NCBI RefSeq assembly: GCF_018854495.1
Contig: NZ_JABBDR010000278.1
Span: 1 to 19,940, forward strand
Origin: Acidithiobacillus ferruginosus
GTDB taxonomy: Bacteria > Pseudomonadota > Gammaproteobacteria > Acidithiobacillales > Acidithiobacillaceae
Length of the DNA stretch: 19,940 nt
Reading direction: 5' to 3'
Shown one piece after another: positions 4,391-19,940 of this stretch (its first letter is position 1; every line of letters starts with the position of its first letter). The notes beneath the pieces were generated by a model. It worked only from the letters and a program-made list of their open reading frames with translations, was not told the DNA's origin and did not search any database. A program made the position numbers and the translations under genes.

Positions 4391-5797
4391 TTGCGCACTG
4401 TGGACGAATTGCTGGCGGCGCAAAAATCGGCGCTTCGGGAAAACGGTTCCCTCGACTACAGGCAACGTAGGACGCTGCTGCGGGCCCTTGCGCAGATGCT
4501 GCGGCAACACGGCACGGCACTAAGCGAAGCCATCGCCCGGGATTTCGGCAGACGCCACCCCCGCGAAACGGAAATCTATGAAATCTATCCCCTGCAGGCG
4601 GAGATCGCCTATGTACTCGGCCATCTCAGGAACTGGATGCGGCCTCGTGCCGTGCATACCCGTTGGCCCTTCCTTCCGGCCCGCAGTCAGATCACTCCGC
4701 AACCCGTGGGGGTGGTGGGCATTATCGGCGCCTGGAATTATCCCTTGCTCCTGACCCTGTTGCCATTGATCTCCGCCATCGCCGCGGGGAATCGGGCGAT
4801 TATCAAAGGGCCGCGTCTGGTGCCTCAGACCATGACGTTATTGGGGCAATATCTGCGTGATGTGGCACCTGAGGATACCATCGCGCTGGTCCAGGGATCA
4901 CCTGATGTGGATCACGCGTTTCCCGGACTGCCTTTCGACCATCTGATTTTTTCTGGCGCCACCCGTACCGGACGGGTGATCGCCCGTGCCGCTGCGCGGA
5001 ATCTGGTACCCGTGACACTGTCCATGAGTGGCAAGAGCCCGGCCATTATCCAGCGTGATTATCCCCTGGCCACGGCGGCCCGGTCCATCATGGCGGGCAA
5101 ACTCGTGAATGCCGGGCAAACCTGCATCGCTCCCGATTATTGTCTGGTGGCGGCGGATCGGCGCGACGATTTTATCGCGCTGGCGAAGTCGGCCGCTTTA
5201 GCGCTCTATCCCCACTGGGCAGACAACCCGGACTACACCAGCATCCCCAATGTGCTGCTGTGGAAACGTCTGGATGGCCTGCTGCAGGATGCCCAGGGGA
5301 AAGGAGCGCTGCTATGGCAGTCTTCCCCAGCACCAGCATTGACCGATGGCGCGCAGCGGCCATTCCCGCCCACCCTGCTCTGGAATACACGGCCCGGCAT
5401 GAAAATCCTGGAAGAAGAAACCTTCGGGCCGATCCTGGTGGTTCTGACCTACGATGACATCCAGGAGGCGCTAGCCTACGTGCGCGACCATCCTGCCCCC
5501 CTGGCGCTGTACTATTTCGACCGGGATCAGCGGCGCGCCCTGCGGCACTGTAAAGGAATTGCCGCGGGAGGCGTCACCATCAACGACACCATTTTCCATG
5601 TCGCCCAGCCGGGTATTCCTTTCGGCGGCATCGGCCTGAGCGGCATAGGCCAGTATCGCGGTATTTATGGGTTTCAACGCCTCTCGCACTACCAGGGCGT
5701 CTTCAGGCAGAATCGTCTGAGCGCCTGCGAATGGGTGCGCCCCCCTTATGGACGCTGGACGCGGCTGCTCATCGCCTGGCTGTCACGCTGGGGATAA
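4391..5797 (+). CDS. Aldehyde dehydrogenase family protein (coniferyl-aldehyde/class 3 type) lacking the general-base Glu
   Basis: The 468-residue product matches the class 3/coniferyl-aldehyde dehydrogenase type. It has GAWNYP (113-118, Asn116), Lys139, an FSGATRTG nucleotide loop (187-194), the catalytic cysteine in NAGQTCIAPDY (Cys245), EEETFGPI and PFGGIGLSGIG. Two usual features are altered. The general-base motif LELGGKSP reads LSMSGKSP, putting Ser211 in place of Glu. KPSE reads KGPR. The acyl-enzyme cysteine chemistry may remain while hydrolysis or cofactor choice differs; loss of this Glu is also seen in CoA-acylating relatives. The start is TTG 4391 with AAGGA 6 nt upstream; no separate promoter was recognised after the terminator. 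It lies 29 nt before a GMC oxidoreductase gene. Substrate unknown. Confidence 0.85.
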   Translation: MRTVDELLAAQKSALRENGSLDYRQRRTLLRALAQMLRQHGTALSEAIARDFGRRHPRETEIYEIYPLQAEIAYVLGHLRNWMRPRAVHTRWPFLPARSQITPQPVGVVGIIGAWNYPLLLTLLPLISAIAAGNRAIIKGPRLVPQTMTLLGQYLRDVAPEDTIALVQGSPDVDHAFPGLPFDHLIFSGATRTGRVIARAAARNLVPVTLSMSGKSPAIIQRDYPLATAARSIMAGKLVNAGQTCIAPDYCLVAADRRDDFIALAKSAALALYPHWADNPDYTSIPNVLLWKRLDGLLQDAQGKGALLWQSSPAPALTDGAQRPFPPTLLWNTRPGMKILEEETFGPILVVLTYDDIQEALAYVRDHPAPLALYYFDRDQRRALRHCKGIAAGGVTINDTIFHVAQPGIPFGGIGLSGIGQYRGIYGFQRLSHYQGVFRQNRLSACEWVRPPYGRWTRLLIAWLSRWG

Positions 5798-9653: not shown

Positions 9654-9659
9654 TGTCAA
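9630..9659 (-). promoter_or_regulatory. Candidate sigma-70 promoter for thiC
   Basis: On the minus strand TTGACA (9659-9654) is followed after 18 nt by TACTTT (9635-9630). The start site would be near 9622, just upstream of the riboswitch. The -35 is perfect and overlaps the res stop codon; the -10 is poor. A TATAAA at 9615-9610 lies too close to the riboswitch to serve. The call is tentative. Confidence 0.35.
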
Positions 9660-12400
9660 GTTATCAACATGTGCCCATCTTGCACATCAGCTACTTCAAA
9701 ACGGGAAAAATCCACCAACCTCTTGGATTCTGCCACCTCATCATGGGGAATCAGGAGATACTTCCAGGGCTTGCCGCCGACCTGCGCGGCGTGATCCGAT
9801 GCGTGTTTACACCAGCGCGCAGCGGCCGCTGCCTTGGCCCGAACTTCCGGCGTGTTGAGCTCGCCGCGCGCTTTGGTTTCCGCCATAAAAATGGTTGTGT
9901 CGGTTTCCGCGACGAAATCCGGGATATATTCGGGCTGTTCGGCACCCAGCTTGTAGTACATCTGAAATTGTCCCTTGGCAGGCTTAAACCATTTCAGGGC
10001 ATCGCGTTCCAGAATGACCGAGAAACGACGCTCCGTATCAGAGTCGAATTTTTGCAATGGATACAGACAACGCGCAAAGCCGCCAAAGAGCATCTGCTTA
10101 ATGCGGCCGGGCTCGCTGACCGTTTCCCGAAAGTGGTGAACGCCCTGCCCTGCCGCTACCGTATAATTGCATGGCCTCAGCGCCGTAAAACCCCGGCTTA
10201 CCTGCACCTCATAGCCGGTCGCTGCCTCCCAGAAATGCGGCATCATTTCGGCGTGAATCAGTCGGGCAAGTTCACCTCCGTAGGTATTCAGAATCTCATG
10301 CAGCTCGCTCTCGGCGTAATTTTGCGCCTCATAATGGGTGATGCATTGCTCAGCAAGGTCATACAGCAAATCCGCCTGGGTGAAGTAATCAATATCATCA
10401 TAATCCACGAGTTTATTGACAATATAGTCAGCCAATCGCCGCTCCCGCAAGCCACTGCCACCGCTGAGGGTAAACTGGGTATTACCGCGCAATTCCTGAC
10501 CGACGATCTCCCTTTGGCCGGGCTGAAAATTCGGCAGGGCCGCCAACTGGAAGGGGTGGAAACCCGTCGTGACTTCGCCCGTCGGCACCACGGCGATGCG
10601 GGGGATATCCATACTCTGCTGAATCAGCATTTCGGTGGTCTTCGCCACCACGGCGGACAAGTCCGGCACGGCTTCTCCTTCTACCGCACCAGCCAGCAGA
10701 TTGCCTTGGAGCGGCTTCAATCGTTCAGCCACCTCAGCCCTGATTCGTGCTTGTATCCCTGCATCCCGCAACGCGCCCGCAACGGGCACCACGTCACACC
10801 GGGTTTCATAGCTGCCGATGACATCCAGTACCATACGCGCCGCTTGCCGTTCTGCTTCCGTGCTAAAAACAGGCGCAAAAACAGAAGGTATCGGGCCAAC
10901 GTTACCCGGTACCGCCAACACGTCGTCAGCAACGGCAGCAAGACCCAGCCGCGCCATCACGCCAGAAACCACCTGGACACTGACTTTCTGATCATCGCTA
11001 CCGGGCGCATCCAGAATAACCTGCTTCAAATGAATAGGTGAGTCGCCCCGGTTCGCCTCATCAATGATCTCCTGAAACTTGTCATGGGCGACAATGTTCA
11101 GTCGGTCCACCTCCGCCACGCCGGTGCGCTTGCCATAGGGCAGGCGCAGGCCGCGTCCGATGGATTGCTCGATGAGGGTGCGGGCATTGGCTGCGCGCAG
11201 CGGCACAATCGTGTAGAGGTTGGTCACATCCCAACCTTCCTTGAGCATATTGACGTGAATCACGATCTCTGTCGGTTCATCGACATTTTCTACCGCGAGC
11301 AGGCGGGTGACCATCACCTCCTCCTCCGCACCGGTACGACTGGAGTCCACTTGAATGACCTTTTGCGCATAACGTCCGGCGTAGAAGGCATCCGACTCGA
11401 TCAGCGCTTTGAGCTGGGTAGCGTGGGTGGTATCCCGCGCGATGACCAGCATGAAGGGTTTCACCACGTTGACCCTATTTTCGCGGGCGTAGGTCAGCAA
11501 CTCGGCCTTGGTGCTTTCATGCAGGCGCACCCCATCTTCCAGTTTGATTTTCTCCAATTCGTTGGGTGTATGAGCGCTGGCGATGAAATTACGCTGGGTG
11601 ACCACGGCGGGCTCTTTAACGAAGCCATCCTCCAAAGCCCGAGCGAGGGGGTAATCCATCACGACGTTTTTGAAGGGCACCGGCCCGCGGTTGCTTTCGA
11701 CAAATGGCGTCGCGGTCAATTCCAGCCCAAACAGCGGGTTGAGTTCATTGATGGCGCGCATGCCCGCCTGTGCCCGGTAACGATGCGACTCATCCATCAG
11801 CAGCACCAAATCCGGCAAATTGGCCAGATAGTCAAAGTAGCTGTCGCCCAGCACCTCGCGCATCCGTTTGATACGGGGCTCCTTGCCACCGCGCACTTCC
11901 GCGTTCACCTTGGAGATATTGAAAATGTTGATTGTCACTGGCGAAAGCAGGCCCAGCGTGCCGCCACGCTGCTCGTAGTTGTCGCCGGTGATGATCTCTG
12001 GCGACTGCTGCGCGAACTCGCCAATGCCCTTGAATACATACTTCGGCGTGTTCGGCGTGAAGTCGGCGATCAGCTTGTTGTAGATGGTCAGGTTTGGCGC
12101 CAGCACGAAAAAGTTGTTGATGCCATGCGCCAGATGCAGATAGGCGACGAACGCGCCCATCAGCCGCGTCTTGCCCACCCCCGTAGCCAGCGCGAAGCAC
12201 AGCGAAGGGAACTCGCGCTCAAAATCTTCCAGCGTGGCGAACTGCGCATTCAGTGTGGACAGAATCGCCGTCATATCGCGCTCGTGACCCAGCATTTCCG
12301 GGGCGACATCCAGCGCCAGCATCAGCTTGGCCAACGATTCCGCTTGCGGGGGGCGCAACGACAATCGCCCGCTGACATGATGCAGAACGCGCTGATTCAT
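9656..12400 (-). CDS. res: Type III restriction enzyme Res subunit (helicase-nuclease)
   Basis: The 914-residue protein is the ATP-driven restriction subunit that, with Mod, translocates on and cuts unmodified DNA. It has a Walker A motif ATGVGKT (72-78), the Walker B/DEAH-like box LLMDESHRYRA (Asp203, Glu204), motif III LTATPF (229-233), the motif VI region QSIGRGLRLPYG, and a C-terminal PD-(D/E)xK-type nuclease, PDF...AETK (Asp828, Glu841, Lys843). Its length and domain order match type III Res proteins. The start ATG 12400 overlaps the preceding gene's stop (ATGA). It is the last gene of the defence operon. All catalytic motifs look intact. In this operon the mod and res genes are separated by two small genes. 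Confidence 0.93.
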   Translation of the reverse strand: MNQRVLHHVSGRLSLRPPQAESLAKLMLALDVAPEMLGHERDMTAILSTLNAQFATLEDFEREFPSLCFALATGVGKTRLMGAFVAYLHLAHGINNFFVLAPNLTIYNKLIADFTPNTPKYVFKGIGEFAQQSPEIITGDNYEQRGGTLGLLSPVTINIFNISKVNAEVRGGKEPRIKRMREVLGDSYFDYLANLPDLVLLMDESHRYRAQAGMRAINELNPLFGLELTATPFVESNRGPVPFKNVVMDYPLARALEDGFVKEPAVVTQRNFIASAHTPNELEKIKLEDGVRLHESTKAELLTYARENRVNVVKPFMLVIARDTTHATQLKALIESDAFYAGRYAQKVIQVDSSRTGAEEEVMVTRLLAVENVDEPTEIVIHVNMLKEGWDVTNLYTIVPLRAANARTLIEQSIGRGLRLPYGKRTGVAEVDRLNIVAHDKFQEIIDEANRGDSPIHLKQVILDAPGSDDQKVSVQVVSGVMARLGLAAVADDVLAVPGNVGPIPSVFAPVFSTEAERQAARMVLDVIGSYETRCDVVPVAGALRDAGIQARIRAEVAERLKPLQGNLLAGAVEGEAVPDLSAVVAKTTEMLIQQSMDIPRIAVVPTGEVTTGFHPFQLAALPNFQPGQREIVGQELRGNTQFTLSGGSGLRERRLADYIVNKLVDYDDIDYFTQADLLYDLAEQCITHYEAQNYAESELHEILNTYGGELARLIHAEMMPHFWEAATGYEVQVSRGFTALRPCNYTVAAGQGVHHFRETVSEPGRIKQMLFGGFARCLYPLQKFDSDTERRFSVILERDALKWFKPAKGQFQMYYKLGAEQPEYIPDFVAETDTTIFMAETKARGELNTPEVRAKAAAAARWCKHASDHAAQVGGKPWKYLLIPHDEVAESKRLVDFSRFEVADVQDGHMLIT

Positions 12401-12582
12401 GCAGTGGGATCCCGACGCAGCACCTCGGCGCTGAGTCGCACCAACTGCTCATTCCGCACAATGATGATGCTGGTTTCCGTCTGTATGGCAATCTTGCGTG
12501 CCTGCAACGCGGCGCGCCGCATAGCTTGCAACGAAGAACGCAAATCCGGATCTTTAGCTTTTGCTAATTCCTGCTGGGTCAT
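12397..12582 (-). CDS. 61-residue companion protein of the zeta-like kinase (candidate antitoxin)
   Basis: This small charged soluble protein begins MTQQELAKAKDPDLRSSL. A predicted amphipathic helical stretch rich in Ala, Arg and Lys (about residues 10-35) is followed by a strand-like TSIIIVRNEQLV. It overlaps the zeta-like gene by 4 nt (ATGA, start 12582) and the res gene by 4 nt. GGGGAG lies 8-9 nt before the start. I recall similar short proteins next to zeta-toxin-family genes, but have no firm family name. A role as partner or antitoxin of the kinase is inference from adjacency; classic zeta antitoxins are usually encoded upstream. Confidence 0.72.
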   Translation of the reverse strand: MTQQELAKAKDPDLRSSLQAMRRAALQARKIAIQTETSIIIVRNEQLVRLSAEVLRRDPTA

Positions 12583-13094
12583 GGCTGTTCTCCCCATTCC
12601 ATTATTACGGGCTCGGTGCCTGCATTGTCGTAAAGCGCCCAGGCATCCACCTCGGCGCGATAACGATCTTTAAAGAGACGTCTTCCCGCCACAAAACGAC
12701 GGCGAATCACGGTCTCAGGAACATTGTGCCCACCCTGTTTGACACGCTCGGCTACGCGAAAAATAGCCAGTTCTGCACTGGGTAACCCCAGAAAAAACAG
12801 ACTGACGTGATAGCCCAGCGCCCGCCATTCCCGGATACGGTGCAGGTAGGATAACCCGGCCAGCGTGGTTTCAAACGCGAAACTATCGCCTCGGGAGACA
12901 CATTCGGTCATCTCATCGAGCATCAAGCGGCCCGCCTTGATGGCGGCCACCTCAGGCGCGAAGGGCGATAAGCCCGCGGCAATCAAGTCAGCGTTGATGA
13001 AACGCGGGCAATCCGCCTCGGCGGGCAGAAAAGCACGAGCAAATGTGGTTTTGCCGGCCCCGTTTGGCCCGGCGATGATGATGACTTTTTTCAC
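12579..13094 (-). CDS. Zeta-toxin-family P-loop kinase
   Basis: The 171-residue product begins at GTG 13094, overlapping the mod stop as GTGA, behind a strong AGGAGGGGGAGG site. A longer in-frame start at 13169 would lie fully inside mod. Visible motifs are Walker A GPNGAGKTT (9-17), FINADLIAAGLSPF with Asp36, FETTLAGLSYL, a GGHNVPE segment and RRRFVAGRRLF. These are typical of the zeta-toxin/AAA_33 group. Classical zeta toxins phosphorylate UDP-N-acetylglucosamine, but many short relatives have no tested substrate. Its place between mod and res, with a small companion gene, suggests a toxin-antitoxin-like or abortive-infection module carried inside the restriction system. Confidence 0.85.
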   Translation of the reverse strand: MKKVIIIAGPNGAGKTTFARAFLPAEADCPRFINADLIAAGLSPFAPEVAAIKAGRLMLDEMTECVSRGDSFAFETTLAGLSYLHRIREWRALGYHVSLFFLGLPSAELAIFRVAERVKQGGHNVPETVIRRRFVAGRRLFKDRYRAEVDAWALYDNAGTEPVIMEWGEQP

Positions 13095-14797
13095 ACCTCC
13101 CCCTCCTGGAACAAGCCACTTTGGCGGGAATCTGCCGCTTTCCCTCCATGCACCTTCGCACCCCGGCACGGGACGGCGGGCGCATCGGTTGGTTCAGGCG
13201 AGGCGGCCATCGGTAGGTTCGCCACGTTCAGGCTGTAATCGTCATGCCCCCATTCGCAGCGGGCCAGCACCATTTTCGGAATCTTCTTCAGCGTCAGGTT
13301 CGGCCAGCGCTCGGCGGCCCTGGCAGCGGTCACCCCGTGGAAGGCGGCGCAGCAGATCAGCAGGCTTTGCTCACCGCCTACCTCATCCGACAGCGCCTGC
13401 AACTGCTCCGCCGAGAGATTTTGCGTGGTGACGTAGATGAAATCGCGCTCGCTGGAATGCCCATGCTGCCACCAACGGGTTTCCGATGGCGCATAGCTGA
13501 AGCCCTCCAACTTGCACAGTGCCTCGGCCAGTTGCGCCGCGTCATATTCGGGGTTGATCACCGAGTTACCCCAGCGGTCATTGACGACCAGACTGGGCGC
13601 GAGGCGGTAATAGCGGAAGCCGCCGCCGCCCTGCCAGTTCACCGCCCCGGTAATGCCGCCGGGATCAGCGCCGTCGATGACTTTTTGCAGGCGCGGGATG
13701 ATGTGGGTGTGGCAGTGCTCGCCCAGTTCGACCATAATCCAGCGCCGACCCATTTTGTGGGCGACCGCGCCGGTGGTGCCGGAACCGGCGAAGGAGTCGA
13801 GGACTAGGTCGTTGGGGCTGGTGGCGAGTTCTAACACGCGTCTAATCAATCGCTCTGGCTTCGGAGTCTGAAATACATCTTCGGCGCTTGGCACAACCGC
13901 CATGACCTCTTTCTTTGCTTCCTGCGTGTGCCCAACCTCGTCATGCAACCAGATTGATTGCGGAACAATCCCTTCCATTACTTCCGACAAAAAACGCTTA
14001 ATGCGAGGAACATTGTCACCATTCTTTCCCCACCATATGCGTCCGTCTTTATCTAACTCGCGGAACTTCTCAAAAGACACACGCCAGAACATACCTTTTG
14101 GTGGGCCTGATATAATCCGCCCAGATGGGCTCGTGATCGGATAGATGCCCGCCGAGTACGAATTTCGAGCGGACATATCGCCCGAGGTCCATAAGCCTCG
14201 CGGATCATTGTCTGGATTCTTATAACCCTGGTTGTGTTTATCGTCGCGCGGGAGCAGTTTCCTCTTCCATCGGGCCTTTTCCTTGGCGTACAGCAAGATA
14301 TGGTCGTGCGAGTCGGAAATATATTGTGCAGTGCTGTTTGGCGCGAAGCGCTTTTGCCATAGGACATTCGCCACAAAATTTGCCCGCCCAAATACCTCAT
14401 CACACAATACCTTGAGGTAATGCGCTTCGTTGTCATCAATCGTGATCCACAGCGACCCATCCTCCGACAGCAGCCGCCGAATGATTTCCAGCCGGTCGCG
14501 CATCAGCCCCAGCCAGATCGAATGCTCCAGCCCGTCGTCGTAATGGGTAAACGCGCTGCCCGTGTTGTAGGGCGGGTCGATGAACACGCACTTCACCTTG
14601 CCAGTGAATTCCGCCTCCAGCGCCTTCAAGGCCAGCAGGTTGTCGCCAAAGATCAGTCGGTTGTCGAAGATGTCGTTTTCCCTCACCCGCTGCGCCGCGT
14701 GATACGAACGCGCAGGGTCTTCCAGCAAAATGCGCGGCTCCAGCTTGGGCCGCTTTTCCTTGCCGATCCAGGTGAGTTCGAGTTTTTGTTTGCCCAT
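13091..14797 (-). CDS. mod: Type III restriction-modification DNA methyltransferase (Mod, beta-class N6-adenine)
   Basis: The 568-residue product carries DPPY (74-77, in CVFIDPPYNTG) before the SAM-binding FAGSGTT (336-342), the beta-class order of type III Mod enzymes, with a long central region that should hold the target-recognition domain. It methylates adenine in the recognition site and supplies sequence specificity to Res. ATG 14797 begins 1 nt after the stop codon of the PHP-ATPase gene; longer in-frame starts lie inside that gene and are disfavoured. Downstream it overlaps the zeta-like gene by 4 nt. Motifs are intact. The recognition sequence cannot be read from the protein here. 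Confidence 0.93.
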   Translation of the reverse strand: MGKQKLELTWIGKEKRPKLEPRILLEDPARSYHAAQRVRENDIFDNRLIFGDNLLALKALEAEFTGKVKCVFIDPPYNTGSAFTHYDDGLEHSIWLGLMRDRLEIIRRLLSEDGSLWITIDDNEAHYLKVLCDEVFGRANFVANVLWQKRFAPNSTAQYISDSHDHILLYAKEKARWKRKLLPRDDKHNQGYKNPDNDPRGLWTSGDMSARNSYSAGIYPITSPSGRIISGPPKGMFWRVSFEKFRELDKDGRIWWGKNGDNVPRIKRFLSEVMEGIVPQSIWLHDEVGHTQEAKKEVMAVVPSAEDVFQTPKPERLIRRVLELATSPNDLVLDSFAGSGTTGAVAHKMGRRWIMVELGEHCHTHIIPRLQKVIDGADPGGITGAVNWQGGGGFRYYRLAPSLVVNDRWGNSVINPEYDAAQLAEALCKLEGFSYAPSETRWWQHGHSSERDFIYVTTQNLSAEQLQALSDEVGGEQSLLICCAAFHGVTAARAAERWPNLTLKKIPKMVLARCEWGHDDYSLNVANLPMAASPEPTDAPAVPCRGAKVHGGKAADSRQSGLFQEGEV

Positions 14798-14798
14798 T

Positions 14799-17615
14799 TC
14801 AAACCTTTGCCCGCATATCTTTAAGAATCCGTTTGTAGCGTTGCTCAAAGGCTTTTTCACCGCCCTCCATAATTTCGCAAACCTTCACTCGTATAGCCCG
14901 CTCCTGTAATCCACCCGCCGTGTTGTTCACGATCTGGCCACCCACGAATTCCATGGGCATGACCAACTCGGCATCGCCGTTCACGACAATGTTTGCGTTA
15001 TGGGTAATGACAATCAGTTGGCGGCGGTTCTTGTTGTTCCTGAGCTGGGTCACCACTAGTTGCGAAACCAGCGCGTTGTCCAAGTCATCTTCCGGCTGAT
15101 CCATCAACAGCGGCTCGCTGCCATGTGCCAGCAGGAACGACAAAATCGCAGCGGTCTTTTGACCTGCCGATGCCTGCTGAAGGCTCTGGAACGAACTTGA
15201 TTCGTCGCGCTGGTACTGGAGATCAACGGCATCTTCGGGGAACCATGCCGCCAATTCGTCGAAGACCACCGAAGCGACCTCTGGCTTCATGTCCTTCAAC
15301 TTTTTGACGAACTTCCCGTGCAGCTTGGTGTTCAGCACCTGCTCGTTCATCTCTTCAAGCGACTGCTTGATCTCCTGCAACCGCTCAGGCACGAACGACG
15401 CCAAGGCCGGATTCACCAAGTCCCAGACCATGCCACATGGCTTGGGCGGATCGTCATCGGTCTCGCCATAGATTTCCTTGGCGAAAGTACCTTCGGTCTC
15501 AATGCGAAGAATCTCCCGCAGGCTGGCAGCGCCAGCTTCCGCGTCCGCCATGGTGTTCAGCGTGATCTTCAAAGCAGGCACATTCACCAGCACTTGATTG
15601 AGGAAGTCCTGCCGCAGCACGGTCAACTCTTGGCGCTCCTGGTGCAACGCAGCTTGCGCATCCACAACAGCTTTCCGTGCTTGCTCAAGATCGGTGCTGA
15701 TGGCGTTGAACTGGTCCAATTGCTTTTTCAGCTTCTCCTCCAGCGCCACGGCTTGAGAAGCATCTTCAGCATTGGTGATGCTTTGGGCCTTGAGTTCCGC
15801 CACGATGCGTGCGTATTTATCGAGATGCACTTTATTTTCTTGGTGCCATGCGCTCGTGCCACTGGCAGCCTTTGCTGCATCAAGGTCTGCCTGCATGCTG
15901 GCAACCAAGGCCGTGATCTGGTCAAAGTTACCAGCCAGCTTTTGCGTCAGTGCTTCCGTCGCCAGCTTCTCCGCGTGTTCAGCCGGAGTCGTGGCCTCGA
16001 AGTCGGTGAGCGCCAGGTTCTTCAGATTGACGGCTTCCGCAGCACTGGCTTGCAGTGCCTGAACATCCTCTCCAAGCAACTTGAAGAAACCTTCGACCGC
16101 ACGCTGCTGTTTGCCAGCATGTTGATACGCCTTGAGGGCATCGCCAAAGTTCGAGGATGCGAAGACCTTGGCCTTGCGCGATGCCTCCTTGTACTGAAGC
16201 TCGACAGCAGGCTTCTGCGCAATCTCAAGCTCCAGTGTGCGGACACGCTTTCTGGCCGCGTTCAATGCCTCGCGCTTGGCAGCAAAACCCTGTGCCCAAG
16301 CCTCCTTGCTGCCGCCGAGCACATCGTCGATGTACTGAATCAGATGCTGCGGGTTGTCGGCCAGTGCGAGAATTTGCTTCTGGCTGAAAAGTTTTACCGG
16401 GAAGTTGCTGCGGGCCTGTTCCTCGGTCAGTTGCGTTGTCTGCCATGCACCGCTGTCCCAGCGCAGCACCGACACCGCAAACTTGGCATCAGCCCCTTTG
16501 CTCCAACGGTACTCAAACCGCTCTTCCAGATCACCATGCCCTTTGGATACCTCGACCGTGATGCGAGTATTGTGAAGCATCATGCCAGGCTGATTGCGGC
16601 CTGTTTTTTCCTTCTTGAAGTTCTCGAACGATTGCTTCAGCGCGCTGTCAGAACGCCCCGTCAGCAATTCGTTTTCTCTTGCCAACCCCAAGCGCAGGCA
16701 TTCCAGTATGGTGGACTTGCCGCTACCCCGGCCACCAATCAAGGCGTTGTAGCTGGGGTTGAAGTGAATCGTCAGTGGGTCTTTCTGGCGCAGGCGCAGC
16801 TTCTCAACCGTGATGCTCTTGATCTTCGGACGACTCAGTTGCTGCGGGTAGTTGGCACATTGGTCACTACGGCGGATAGCTGACTCAGGATCAAGCAGCG
16901 CCAGCTTCAAGCCCTCGATGGAAGGGGCTGACATCTTCACCCACGTATAGCCTCGGCCAATGTCGCTAGGCTGGTGGCTGTCTGAACCAAGCACAAAAGC
17001 CAAGTCAGCCAATGCAGCAGCATGCGGTTGCAAACAGCTTGTTGCCGGATCAATGACCTCGACTGCATCCAGCAACTTGAAGATAGGCTGCAAGGTGTTG
17101 TGATCGGTCAACGAGATCAGCAGGCCTTTAGGCTGATCGACATGCGCGGCGCAAGCGACTCCGCCCGCCGACTGGATGGCGCGGATGACCTGTTCGACAC
17201 TTTGGCTGGTCACTGCATCACTGTCACCCAGCGTACCGGTATAACCAACGCTGCCGCGAATGGCATCAATGTCTGAGGTGCCCTTGCTTGGGTCAAGAAT
17301 CACCATCAGATGCACGCCACCGCTACATGACAACTCCATGCCCGGAAAGATCGTCATGCTCCCCCACGTTGCGGCATCTTGTTGTTTCAAGGCTGCCAGC
17401 TCCGCCTTGAGCTTGTCGATCCAGCCGCCGGTATTGTGGTCGGCGACGACAATACACTGGATGCCCTTGTCCAGATAGTCTTGCAACCACTGGCGCGGCG
17501 TGGTGGTTTTGGCGCCCTTGTAGTCCAGCGACGCAGGCGTATGGCTGTGGAAGTCGAACTTCCACCATTTAGACCCCGGATAGTCGTGATTTTCGATAAT
17601 CAAACCAACTCCCAT
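14799..17615 (-). CDS. PHP-domain / SMC-like ATPase (TrlF-type)
   Basis: The 938-residue protein fuses an N-terminal PHP phosphoesterase domain to an ABC/SMC-type ATPase. PHP metal ligands look complete: HSH (His23, His25), ADH (Asp59, His60), Glu94, His158 and GSDSH (Asp212, His214). The ATPase has Walker A GGRGSGKST (Lys300), a long helical, coiled-coil-like middle (about 430-700), the signature SAGQKTAA, Walker B PLLMDQPEDDLDN and an H-loop ITHNANIVVNG. Such proteins are often annotated as TrlF-family ATPases and occur in defence islands; I give the name with caution. A nucleic-acid-sensing ATPase driving PHP nuclease or phosphatase action is inference. ATG 17615 overlaps the helicase gene by 16 nt with no separate ribosome site, so translation is probably coupled. 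Confidence 0.85.
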   Translation of the reverse strand: MGVGLIIENHDYPGSKWWKFDFHSHTPASLDYKGAKTTTPRQWLQDYLDKGIQCIVVADHNTGGWIDKLKAELAALKQQDAATWGSMTIFPGMELSCSGGVHLMVILDPSKGTSDIDAIRGSVGYTGTLGDSDAVTSQSVEQVIRAIQSAGGVACAAHVDQPKGLLISLTDHNTLQPIFKLLDAVEVIDPATSCLQPHAAALADLAFVLGSDSHQPSDIGRGYTWVKMSAPSIEGLKLALLDPESAIRRSDQCANYPQQLSRPKIKSITVEKLRLRQKDPLTIHFNPSYNALIGGRGSGKSTILECLRLGLARENELLTGRSDSALKQSFENFKKEKTGRNQPGMMLHNTRITVEVSKGHGDLEERFEYRWSKGADAKFAVSVLRWDSGAWQTTQLTEEQARSNFPVKLFSQKQILALADNPQHLIQYIDDVLGGSKEAWAQGFAAKREALNAARKRVRTLELEIAQKPAVELQYKEASRKAKVFASSNFGDALKAYQHAGKQQRAVEGFFKLLGEDVQALQASAAEAVNLKNLALTDFEATTPAEHAEKLATEALTQKLAGNFDQITALVASMQADLDAAKAASGTSAWHQENKVHLDKYARIVAELKAQSITNAEDASQAVALEEKLKKQLDQFNAISTDLEQARKAVVDAQAALHQERQELTVLRQDFLNQVLVNVPALKITLNTMADAEAGAASLREILRIETEGTFAKEIYGETDDDPPKPCGMVWDLVNPALASFVPERLQEIKQSLEEMNEQVLNTKLHGKFVKKLKDMKPEVASVVFDELAAWFPEDAVDLQYQRDESSSFQSLQQASAGQKTAAILSFLLAHGSEPLLMDQPEDDLDNALVSQLVVTQLRNNKNRRQLIVITHNANIVVNGDAELVMPMEFVGGQIVNNTAGGLQERAIRVKVCEIMEGGEKAFEQRYKRILKDMRAKV

Positions 17616-19894
17616 TCAATGGTGTACAGAACACACTCACGCATTCGTTGCTGCATTTGCAATTCGAGTGCCGAAATCAAAACGTTCCTTTGCGCCTCGA
17701 CCTCATCCTGACGCGCGAACAATTCCCGACGCAGCTTGCTACGTTTGGCTTCCAGATCGCGCTGGCGTTTTTGCTGGGCAAGCTTATCCTCCAGTGTCGC
17801 TGAGGTTGCCGCAAGACGGCGCACTTCCTTGATCTCGGTGTCGATGGTCTTGATCTCCTGCTCAAGGCCCAGTTTGAGGTCGTCGGCCCAGGCGTCGAGC
17901 TTGAGCAGTTCCTGCTCGAAGTAACCGAGGTTGCGCTGATTGATGATTTGCAGCAAGGCGCATTGGCGCTCATGCGTATCTTCATATAGCGCTGCGTTAC
18001 CTGCATCGAAAAGCCCGGCGGGCTGGACCTGTGCAGGCAGACGCAACAGTTTTTCTGGATCGTCTTCCGGCAGTTTTTCGCCGTCATAGGTAACAGCCGC
18101 AACTACCAGATGCTGCTCCAGATTACCCAAAGCCTCCACTTCCACCAGCTTTACGCTGAGCCAGCCCATTTTGCCCCGGTAGTCCTTGAGCGTGCTGATC
18201 TGTGCACCATAGGCTTCATAGTCGAACACGAGCCGGACAGTGCGTAGAACGTGTGCCTTAGCCTGTTGAGTAACCCATTCTGCCAAAGGATGCCCCAACC
18301 GGTAGAGGTGAGACTCGCCACTGCGCCGGGGGAGTTCATAGCGACCCAGATCAATGTGTTGCAGCTCGGCAGGGAGGCTGTGCAGGGTGAACCCGTCGGC
18401 ATCAAAATCGGCGTAGCCCTCTAACTCCGCACTGGTCAACTCCATCAACATGCGCTCAAAGCGGCTCCGTGCATCCTGACTATCCTGGGCACGCACGCGC
18501 AGTTTGTCCTGCACGTCTTCGTCGAAGTGTTCCAGCAGAATTTGGCGGGTCTTGACCATGGCTTCGTTTATTTCGCCGGACAGATCACACTGCAACTGCT
18601 CAAAGCTGGACTTGATGGCGTCCGAATCGCGGCAATTCTGATAAATATCGGCGATGCGCCGCTCAAAGTCCACACCGGAACCGATAGCACCCAGCACTTC
18701 ATCGCTGGCCCCGAATACGCCCTCAAAAAGCTGAAATTTTTGCGCGAGGAGCTCGTAGACACGCGCATCGGCCTCATTACTGCGGTCAACGAAATTTACC
18801 ACCACGACATCGTGCTTTTGTCCATAGCGATGACAACGTCCGATGCGCTGCTCAATCCGTTGCGGATTCCAAGGCAGATCGTAGTTAATGACGAGAGAGC
18901 AGAACTGGAGGTTGATACCCTCCGCGCCCGCCTCAGTGGCGATCATGACCGTACCCCGTTCCTTGAAGTGCTCGACGAGTGCGGCACGGGTATCGGCAGT
19001 CTTGGAGCCGGTGATGTGGTCGGTGCCTTCGTGACGTTTCAGCCAGTCTCTGTAGACGGACTGGGCACGCGCATCACTGTTCGTGCCATTGAACAACACG
19101 ATACCTTCGCCATAAGAGGTGTCGGCCAGCAGATCGAGCAGGTAAGCTTGCGTGCGTTTGGATTCCGTGAAGATGATGGCTTTTTTTGCGGCACCCAGCC
19201 GCTCCAGCTCAGAGAAAGCGCGATCCAACGCAGTGAGCAGCGCTTTGCCCTTGGCATTATCACGGATGTTTGTCGCCAGATTCATGAATTGCCGAAGCTC
19301 TGCGATCTCCTTGACTATGGCATCGCGCTCATTCGGCAGGGCTAAGGCCTCTGCGGGGTCTTGATCACCCCAACCTTCGGCCGCTTCCTCCGCAATTTCA
19401 TCGAGTGATTCGTAATCTTCGTCCAGCTCTCCAACCAAGTCTGCTGCGTCCTCAGATGCATCCAGCACGCCTTGCAGGCGATTGGCCATGGTGCCCAAGG
19501 CACCGGCAATCGCCTGGGTAGAAGATGCCAGCAATTTCCACAATACCAGAGAAATAAGCTGTCGCTGACCATCGGGCAAGGCTTTCAGATTCGGGCGACG
19601 CAAATAGTCGGCAACCAGTTGGGAGAGTTCGCGTTCGGCATCGCTGGGGGTGAACTCCTGCACAATGGCCTTACGCGCCGTGTAAGACACGTAAGGCTGC
19701 ACCTGGCGACGCAGTGTACGTTTGCAAACCGGGGCAATGCGTGCCTTGAGCTGGTCGGCGCCCACACCTCGGCTCTGACTACCAAACTGTACCCGGAAGC
19801 TATCAAGATCACCGAAAATTCGGTCGTCGATCATACTTACCAGGCCATACAGCTCCAATAGCGAATGAACCGCCCCGGGTTTCGTGGAGGCCAT
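17600..19894 (-). CDS. SNF2-type helicase, C-terminal part only (5' end apparently cut off by an insertion sequence)
   Basis: The visible 764 residues contain helicase motif IV (IIFTESKRT), motif V (ATEAGAEGINLQF) and motif VI (QRIGRCHRYGQ), then a long C-terminal region ending in a charged coiled-coil. Motifs I, Ia, II and III, which bind ATP, are absent. Known relatives, as I recall, read TATPLQNSLLELYGLVS at this point; here the match begins exactly at SLLELYG (from Ser11), and the residues before it are unrelated. The first 10 codons fall in sequence that looks like an IS3-family terminus (19866 onward). ATG 19894 has no ribosome site, and the frame stays open to the window edge. This is therefore a remnant unlikely to be an active ATPase. 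Its stop overlaps the PHP-ATPase start by 16 nt. Confidence 0.8.
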   Translation of the reverse strand: MASTKPGAVHSLLELYGLVSMIDDRIFGDLDSFRVQFGSQSRGVGADQLKARIAPVCKRTLRRQVQPYVSYTARKAIVQEFTPSDAERELSQLVADYLRRPNLKALPDGQRQLISLVLWKLLASSTQAIAGALGTMANRLQGVLDASEDAADLVGELDEDYESLDEIAEEAAEGWGDQDPAEALALPNERDAIVKEIAELRQFMNLATNIRDNAKGKALLTALDRAFSELERLGAAKKAIIFTESKRTQAYLLDLLADTSYGEGIVLFNGTNSDARAQSVYRDWLKRHEGTDHITGSKTADTRAALVEHFKERGTVMIATEAGAEGINLQFCSLVINYDLPWNPQRIEQRIGRCHRYGQKHDVVVVNFVDRSNEADARVYELLAQKFQLFEGVFGASDEVLGAIGSGVDFERRIADIYQNCRDSDAIKSSFEQLQCDLSGEINEAMVKTRQILLEHFDEDVQDKLRVRAQDSQDARSRFERMLMELTSAELEGYADFDADGFTLHSLPAELQHIDLGRYELPRRSGESHLYRLGHPLAEWVTQQAKAHVLRTVRLVFDYEAYGAQISTLKDYRGKMGWLSVKLVEVEALGNLEQHLVVAAVTYDGEKLPEDDPEKLLRLPAQVQPAGLFDAGNAALYEDTHERQCALLQIINQRNLGYFEQELLKLDAWADDLKLGLEQEIKTIDTEIKEVRRLAATSATLEDKLAQQKRQRDLEAKRSKLRRELFARQDEVEAQRNVLISALELQMQQRMRECVLYTIEWELV

Positions 19895-19940
19895 TTGGTT
19901 TAAGTGCAGGCCGTTAATTCGGTCTGTTCGGCGAGTTGCC
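19866..19940 (-). mobile_element. Terminus of a probable IS3-family insertion sequence (partial)
   Basis: From 19866 the plus strand reads TGAACCGCCCCGGGTTTCG, resembling terminal repeats of IS3-family elements, which begin with TG and end with CA. This is the exact point where helicase homology ends. On the minus strand a frame ending QLAEQTELTACT with TAA at 19902-19900 could be the tail of the transposase, 34 nt from the element end. Most of the element lies outside the window, so the family assignment rests on the terminal motif only. Confidence 0.55.

Follow-up and report, generated by a model that had tools for sequence, protein, structure and literature searches.

A type III restriction-modification locus of Acidithiobacillus ferruginosus with a RapA-like SNF2 gene and two slots for exchangeable cargo

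The operon and its genes

The stretch of 19,940 nucleotides analysed here, to which we refer in its full length as the window, is the entire contig NZ_JABBDR010000278.1 (C198) of Acidithiobacillus ferruginosus, the genome of which (G000) amounts to 3.0 Mb in 309 contigs. Its minus strand carries an operon of six co-directional open reading frames (ORFs) that, read from right to left, encode part of an SNF2 motor protein, a TrlF-family protein, the Mod protein of a type III restriction-modification (R-M) system, a zeta-like kinase, a protein of 61 amino acids (aa) and the Res protein. The subject of this work is the recurrent combination of SNF2, Mod and Res, together with the exchangeable genes found between them, which we call cargo. 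The six genes are tightly joined, with an overlap of 16 nucleotides (nt) between SNF2 and TrlF, a gap of 1 nt between TrlF and Mod, and an overlap of 4 nt at each of the junctions Mod/zeta, zeta/small protein and small protein/Res. This order, the single strand and the junctions had been described in an earlier note on this DNA and were reproduced from the ORF coordinates. The gene identities proposed there are likewise backed by matches in Pfam, NCBIfam and PADLOC, with the 61-aa protein giving no PADLOC match (the Pfam scan covered the other five operon proteins only).

The presence of Mod and Res in one operon, with their motifs, identifies a type III R-M system at the gene level. Mod (13091..14797, minus strand, 568 aa) is of the adenine methyltransferase (MTase) type and belongs to lineage A as defined below, as judged from PF01555 (N6_N4_Mtase) and PADLOC MTase_III (742 bits); the motifs DPPY and FAGSGTTG were read by eye in its translation. 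An approximate middle region of the gene (13874..14387, minus strand), delimited as the gap between homologous blocks when the window is compared with loci L015 and L108, is without DNA match between related loci and presumably determines target recognition. Res (9656..12400, minus strand, 914 aa), also of lineage A, was assigned by PF04851 (ResIII) and PADLOC REase_III (676 bits), and its translation, again read by eye, contains helicase motifs and a nuclease-like PD..ETK motif. The corresponding subunits of EcoP15I (4zcf) are among the PDB matches to Mod and to Res.

Upstream of Mod, in what we call slot 1, lies the gene for a 938-aa protein (14799..17615, minus strand) that combines PHP and SMC-like ATPase parts (PHP_C, SMC_N) and belongs to the TrlF family (NF045780, 606 bits, cut-off 350). 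The PHP and ATPase motifs mentioned in the earlier note are present; the score with the Ppl anti-phage model NF042955 (560 bits) lies below its cut-off of 1000, and a PDB sequence search returned nothing. Slot 2, between Mod and Res, holds a 171-aa P-loop kinase (12579..13094, minus strand) that passes the zeta toxin model PF06414 (40.2 bits, cut-off 22.3), with no match in NCBIfam, and its 61-aa partner (12397..12582, minus strand), which follows the kinase in L017 and L108 as well.

The SNF2 gene (17600..19865, minus strand) is represented in the window by its C-terminal part only, recognized by PF00271 (Helicase_C), by a DrmD-like score that is below the NCBI cut-off, as obtained with a truncated copy, and by alignment. 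Both the motor and the C-terminal region align to RapA; VIA matches cover mostly residues 21-632, and only the RapA rows align broadly through the C-terminal part. Homology to SNF2 begins at about position 19865 (alignment A1, six intact relatives), and by comparison with these relatives the window lacks about 200 N-terminal residues, which include Walker A and DEAH. The last 75 bases (19866..19940) form the end of a multi-copy element, within which the contig stops; they are identical at 7 other places in G000, of which at least 4 are contig starts. Since these bases are multi-copy and SNF2 homology ends there, the ATG at 19894 belongs to the insertion sequence (IS), and the SNF2 start that had been placed there was not borne out. 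The missing ATP-binding N-lobe was found at C45:75-692, where its frame runs into a second IS end (C45:1-70) that occurs at 10 further places, at 9 of them in full or nearly full length. The same three bases (TTC/GAA; window copy 19863-19865) stand at both junctions, which is the pattern expected of a target-site duplication. Because the SNF2 gene has been split by this element, which we take to be of the IS3 type, the motor is probably inactive in this genome; the frames of cargo, Mod and Res are still open. A second, decayed SNF2 fragment (57% identity over 82 residues) lies at C29:8770-9175 (L002, L114), with neither Mod nor Res in the 8.3 kb read around it.

A three-gene core with two cargo slots

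Neighbourhoods of SNF2 genes were taken from plasmids (9 of the 44 SNF2 records with a cover of 80% or more), E. coli (6 of 29), relatives of the host, an even sample of the phylum (398 genomes), and genome_contigs, where the 80 loci used are the best of 576 matches to the window SNF2. The locus table is without short or duplicate pieces (L001-L004, L091, L092, L094-L101), pieces of the own genome and fragments below 350 bits (such as L112-L114), and the near-identical E. coli loci L102 and L116-L118 were removed before tree construction and slot counts. Genes were called with a crude greedy ORF caller, and cargo clusters were built by single linkage from the same slots, mostly with one representative of each scanned.

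Downstream DNA of at least 8 kb is available for 88 of the 120 SNF2 loci, and in 83 of these Mod and Res follow on the same strand, a recurrence of gene order that exceeds chance. The proportion is 79 of 84 without the four near-identical E. coli loci, and 53 of 56 in the genome_contigs subset alone. In the phylum sample, SNF2 was found in 19 of the 398 genomes (20 hits, the own genome included); Mod and/or Res lie downstream of 18 hits, and the remaining two reach the contig end in an SMC-like and a GmrSD-like gene, respectively. The 85 non-redundant complete loci come from Pseudomonadota (27), Bacteroidota (10), Verrucomicrobiota (5) and eight further phyla (13), with 29 loci lacking a phylum assignment and one an origin. 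By gene content, SNF2, Mod and Res are thus a three-gene core that usually occurs together on one strand in many phyla, and the suggestion of an extended type III locus of which SNF2 is a part was upheld by these counts. Two loci outside the counts, L159 and L160, have genes for SNF2, a DNA methyltransferase and a DEAD/DEAH helicase, in that order.

The general layout is SNF2-[1]-Mod-[2]-Res, with zero to six called ORFs between SNF2 and Mod or between Mod and Res. Cargo is present in slot 1 of 58 and in slot 2 of 30 of the 85 loci, and 17 loci are free of cargo. L060 is an example of the cargo-free form, and L015 and L042 combine AIPR in slot 1 with an empty slot 2. Where slot 2 is empty, the distance between Mod and Res is at most 25 nt in 50 of 54 loci. 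Slot genes of at least 100 aa are co-directional with the operon in 117 of 132 cases, as compared to 247 of 413 in the flanks. Such loci are situated on plasmids and also on integrase-bearing islands.

Several families are specific for one slot. Counts in slot 1 and slot 2 are 22:0 for AIPR (including two loci that rest on short ORFs, of 65 aa in L037 and 168 aa in L078), 9:0 for the SMC-like ATPase, 5:0 for DUF2130, 4:0 for DUF3800, and 3:0 for both SIR2 with HerA and TrlF. The reverse is seen with RhuM and YhcG (1:6 each) and with the zeta kinase and its small partner (0:3 each), whereas Schlafen (3:3), OLD (4:2) and GmrSD (3:1) use both slots. Representatives of the cargo include AIPR (AbiU-like in PADLOC), the SMC-like ATPase with a 65-aa partner, an OLD-like ATPase with DUF4276, DUF2130, SIR2-HerA, DUF3800, TrlF, Schlafen, GmrSD, Abi_2 (AbiD), a Dsr2-like sirtuin (475 bits, below the NCBI cut-off of 1400), RhuM (PADLOC PDC-S05), YhcG (PDC-S02), zeta with its small partner, PDDEXK_3, DUF4258 (with a weak BrnT match) and Fic. 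Several single cargo proteins among the scanned representatives gave no family match. Judged by these assignments, many cargo genes are members of known or candidate defence families.

Exchange of lineages, cargo and the middle region of Mod

The window SNF2 is 42-52% identical to six plasmid copies. The same kind of SNF2 accompanies three lineages of Mod and Res, called A, B and C, which resemble one another little; within lineage A, the Res proteins of L005 and L008 are 52% and 60% identical to that of the window. In the 89 complete loci (69 of lineage A, 11 of B and 9 of C), the lineages of Mod and Res always agree, and slot 1 is without cargo in all nine loci of lineage C. On the SNF2 tree of 85 loci (FastTree), at least 11 lineage switches are required, as compared to a mean of 19.2 and a minimum of 14 with shuffled labels, which indicates that the Mod-Res lineage is partly inherited and has been swapped repeatedly. 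An example is the pair L131 and L133, whose SNF2 proteins are 83% identical, yet whose Mod and Res belong to lineages C and B, respectively. Two successive Mod-like genes precede Res in L128 and L055, and a double specificity of these loci is possible.

The cargo is exchanged as well. The main content of slot 1 requires at least 42 changes on the same tree (shuffled: mean 52.5, minimum 46) and the content of slot 2 requires 27 (shuffled: mean 29.6, minimum 27), so that the inheritance of slot 1 is only partial, and slot 2 does little better than shuffled labels. Within the nine-locus SNF2 clade that contains the window, slot 1 holds AIPR, TrlF, PLD, OLD, SMC-like and other genes. Between L042 (titled Methylobacterium) and L046 (titled Aestuariivirga), SNF2 is 95% and Res 96% identical, yet slot 1 holds AIPR in L042 and an SMC-like gene with a small partner in L046. 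In L008 and L104 (SNF2 98%, Res 99% identical), an IS stands in L008 where L104 has AIPR, and the DNA of the Abi_2 gene of L104 is 66% identical to the Abi_2-bearing region of L008.

A similar block structure exists within mod. In six pairs (L042/L046, L008/L104, L036/L039, L011/L066, window/L015 and window/L108), the first 409-434 bp are homologous, the middle is without match, and the remainder of mod as well as res match again; slot 1 is partly common within the pairs L011/L066 and L036/L039. From these alignments, cargo and the middle region of Mod are seen to be replaced as separate blocks, which argues against a cargo that reads Mod's own site.

The TrlF family occurs in 3 of the 85 loci, in slot 1 each time, namely in the window, L011 and L066, and a TrlF relative is present in 14 of the 398 genomes of the phylum sample, the own genome included. 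The L011 protein (691 bits) is 81% identical to that of L066 and only 36% identical to the window TrlF over 122 aa. It thus represents a distant branch, and a TrlF operon shared by the three loci was rejected for this reason. The zeta kinase and its small partner are found again in slot 2 of L017 and L108, where the L108 small protein is 61% identical to that of the window. Two tandem zeta kinases in L108 were considered and rejected, since the alignment of the second ORF is limited to residues 37-169 of the window kinase and an insert of about 0.8 kb is visible in the DNA; the gene (L108 11886-13225) is apparently interrupted. On pSYSG (L158 2303-4689), a zeta kinase and a 59-aa protein, weakly similar to the 61-aa protein of the window, lie directly behind genes for HsdS and a nucleotidyltransferase; the two may be an accessory of R-M systems in general.

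The left flank of the operon consists of ordinary genes, which encode ThiC, a CopD-like protein with a score under the cut-off, a GMC-type oxidoreductase, an aldehyde dehydrogenase, cytochrome bd subunits and a protein of the metallo-beta-lactamase fold. The oxidoreductase and aldehyde dehydrogenase ORFs overlap by 67 nt (5731-5797), and the start of the oxidoreductase is probably located further in.

Relation to known systems and possible function

EcoP15I requires only mod and res. Two genes are also given in passages of PMC12707154. The window locus resembles this classical type III R-M system in its adenine-type Mod and in a Res with a superfamily 2 helicase and a C-terminal nuclease-like motif, and differs from it by the SNF2 gene and by up to several interleaved cargo genes. 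A second resemblance is to BREX and BREX-Related/Hma, which, according to PMC12839542, combine a methyltransferase and a RapA-like Swi2/Snf2 helicase with effectors inside the operon (restriction endonuclease, GmrSD, OLD-TOPRIM, Schlafen). The same paper proposes the nucleases inside BREX loci as auxiliary and backup effectors, and reports that OLD-TOPRIM (PARIS) modules answer anti-restriction proteins. Here, the restriction part is instead of type III and the slots are two and ordered; Pfam and PADLOC showed neither PglZ nor the DUF499/BrxC ATPase among the operon proteins of the window contig, of which all but the smallest were scanned. L029, which carries HATPase_c_3 cargo, is reminiscent of the R-M neighbourhoods with MORC and AIPR of Iyer 2008 (PMC2292703), in the passages of which a core of SNF2, Mod and Res with two slots does not appear. 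In the open literature, as judged by titles, starts of abstracts and passages and with most subscription papers outside its scope, such a core was not found described. The combination of type III R-M, a RapA-like SNF2 and plug-in effectors would parallel what is reported for BREX.

An assignment to DISARM or MADS, with SNF2 as DrmD and the small helix-turn-helix (HTH) protein upstream in some loci as MAD1, was rejected and is considered quite improbable. DrmD_b is the best family for SNF2, but three intact relatives score 698-720 bits with this model (cut-off 950) and 261-305 bits with DrmD (cut-off 610), below both. The upstream HTH of L006 and L008 does pass the MADS1 model NF047737 (83.5-83.8 bits, cut-off 80), and RefSeq names it mads1 in E. 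coli (e.g. L102 14814-15014), though the locus there is SNF2 with type III R-M; the model may be too broad. A MAD1-like HTH is present upstream in 21 of the 109 loci with sufficient upstream DNA, as found with a rough mixed model, for which reason it was also rejected as a core gene, and none was found beside the own N-lobe on C45. Feature names of 15 annotated records, of which the plasmid gene tables are incomplete, include no DrmA, DrmB or mad gene besides mads1, and in L006 and L159 further helicases or a methylase appear under purely generic names. Of the mad2-mad8 set of MADS, only weak incidental PADLOC matches were seen, in scans not aimed at these genes. In the own genome, the DrmA model matched the two halves of SNF2, with no more than 70 bits, and gave two helicase hits of lower score; it is unspecific, being positive in 13 of 14 control genomes.

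The earlier note had suggested an extended six-gene anti-phage system in which Mod may mark self-DNA for more than one effector, taken here as Res and the TrlF ATPase. The tight overlaps, the intact PHP and ATPase motifs and the TrlF-family proteins in slot 1 of L011 and L066 are in its favour. Against it, the exact six-gene order was found only at the window among the loci examined, the L011 protein is of a distant branch, cargo and the Mod middle region are replaced separately, and Mod or Res of lineages A-C was found in none of 11 other TrlF neighbourhoods (13 genes in total), where other R-M types were not searched for; a 345-aa SNF2-like ORF lies nearby in one of them (L156). A fixed system was rejected, as cargo varies and is absent from 17 of the 85 loci, and joint marking of self-DNA for TrlF now seems very improbable. 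What remains of the proposal is an extended type III locus with SNF2, the helicase being found mainly with R-M genes, with slots whose content is exchangeable. The refuting conditions named in the note gave a mixed outcome, with a gene order unique among the loci examined but a helicase that mainly accompanies R-M genes.

It is also conceivable, although doubtful for the cargo as a whole, that the cargo genes are hitch-hikers, i.e. toxin-like or selfish defence genes in a tightly expressed operon, kept by addiction or linked transfer. For slot 2 this is a serious rival. The content of that slot looks toxin-like (zeta with its partner, Fic, RhuM, DUF4258 with its BrnT match), the zeta pair also stands behind HsdS on pSYSG, a fifth of the loci have no cargo, and the loci are situated on plasmids and integrase-bearing islands. 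Free insertion does not predict, however, that families such as AIPR keep to one slot or that lineage C lacks slot 1 cargo altogether. Furthermore, anti-phage activity has been published for relatives of several slot 1 families (SIR2-HerA, Dsr2, PARIS/Gabija, Ppl).

We consider it probable that the window locus belongs to a widespread and modular kind of type III R-M system, in which a RapA-like motor is combined with backup effectors that can be plugged in. From what is known of the families, Mod would methylate one strand of an asymmetric site and the Mod-Res complex would cut DNA with unmethylated sites, as in EcoP15I. The RapA-like translocase could act on this DNA or on the complex itself, e.g. 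to remove or remodel proteins bound there. The cargo would come into play when restriction fails or is blocked, independently of the sequence read by Mod; this backup role is suggested by the proposal for BREX nucleases (PMC12839542).

A number of observations weigh against this reading. Backup action of the cargo is drawn by analogy with BREX; Schlafen and OLD families occupy both slots; 17 of the 85 loci are free of cargo; and DUF2130, DUF3800 and the match-less single proteins have no defence role evident here. The 80 genome_contigs loci, being best-scoring matches, are an uneven sample. Mod, Res or both are absent from 5 of the 88 SNF2 loci, namely L025 (pieces of Res, no Mod), L065, L075, L103 and L107. 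In L103 (E. coli MB46), IS1 copies mark a rearrangement at the break after SNF2, Mod and Res are missing and a DUF262 gene is inverted, as in a decaying chassis. Conversely, a lineage A Res occurs in 21 of the 398 genomes and SNF2 is present in 12 of those; no SNF2 is in reach of Res in L138, L139 and perhaps L144, which makes SNF2 a usual, not a universal, partner of Res. Of the other such genomes, L141 has an SNF2 tail and L142 an AIPR remnant, and L140, L143, L145 and L146 begin too near to a contig end to judge. In L139 and L145, the gene ahead of Mod encodes a Bro-N protein, and in L138 a Fic-like gene lies between Mod and Res.

A bolder proposal, which we hold to be unlikely, is that SNF2-Mod-Res constitutes a distinct defence class in which SNF2 is a third core subunit that senses when Mod-Res is stalled or inhibited on phage DNA and then licenses whichever effector is present in slot 1, so that the operon would serve as a dock for new effectors with recognition unchanged.

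Annotation would be corrected as well, since in the records opened the upstream HTH is named mads1 or the parts of these loci carry separate generic names. With its two ordered slots, a conserved restriction chassis would amount to a catalogue of defence genes acting together with type III restriction or as a second line behind it, and the content of the slots may offer a simple route to new effectors. It also makes testable whether effectors inside the operon are triggered by failure of restriction or are mere passengers.

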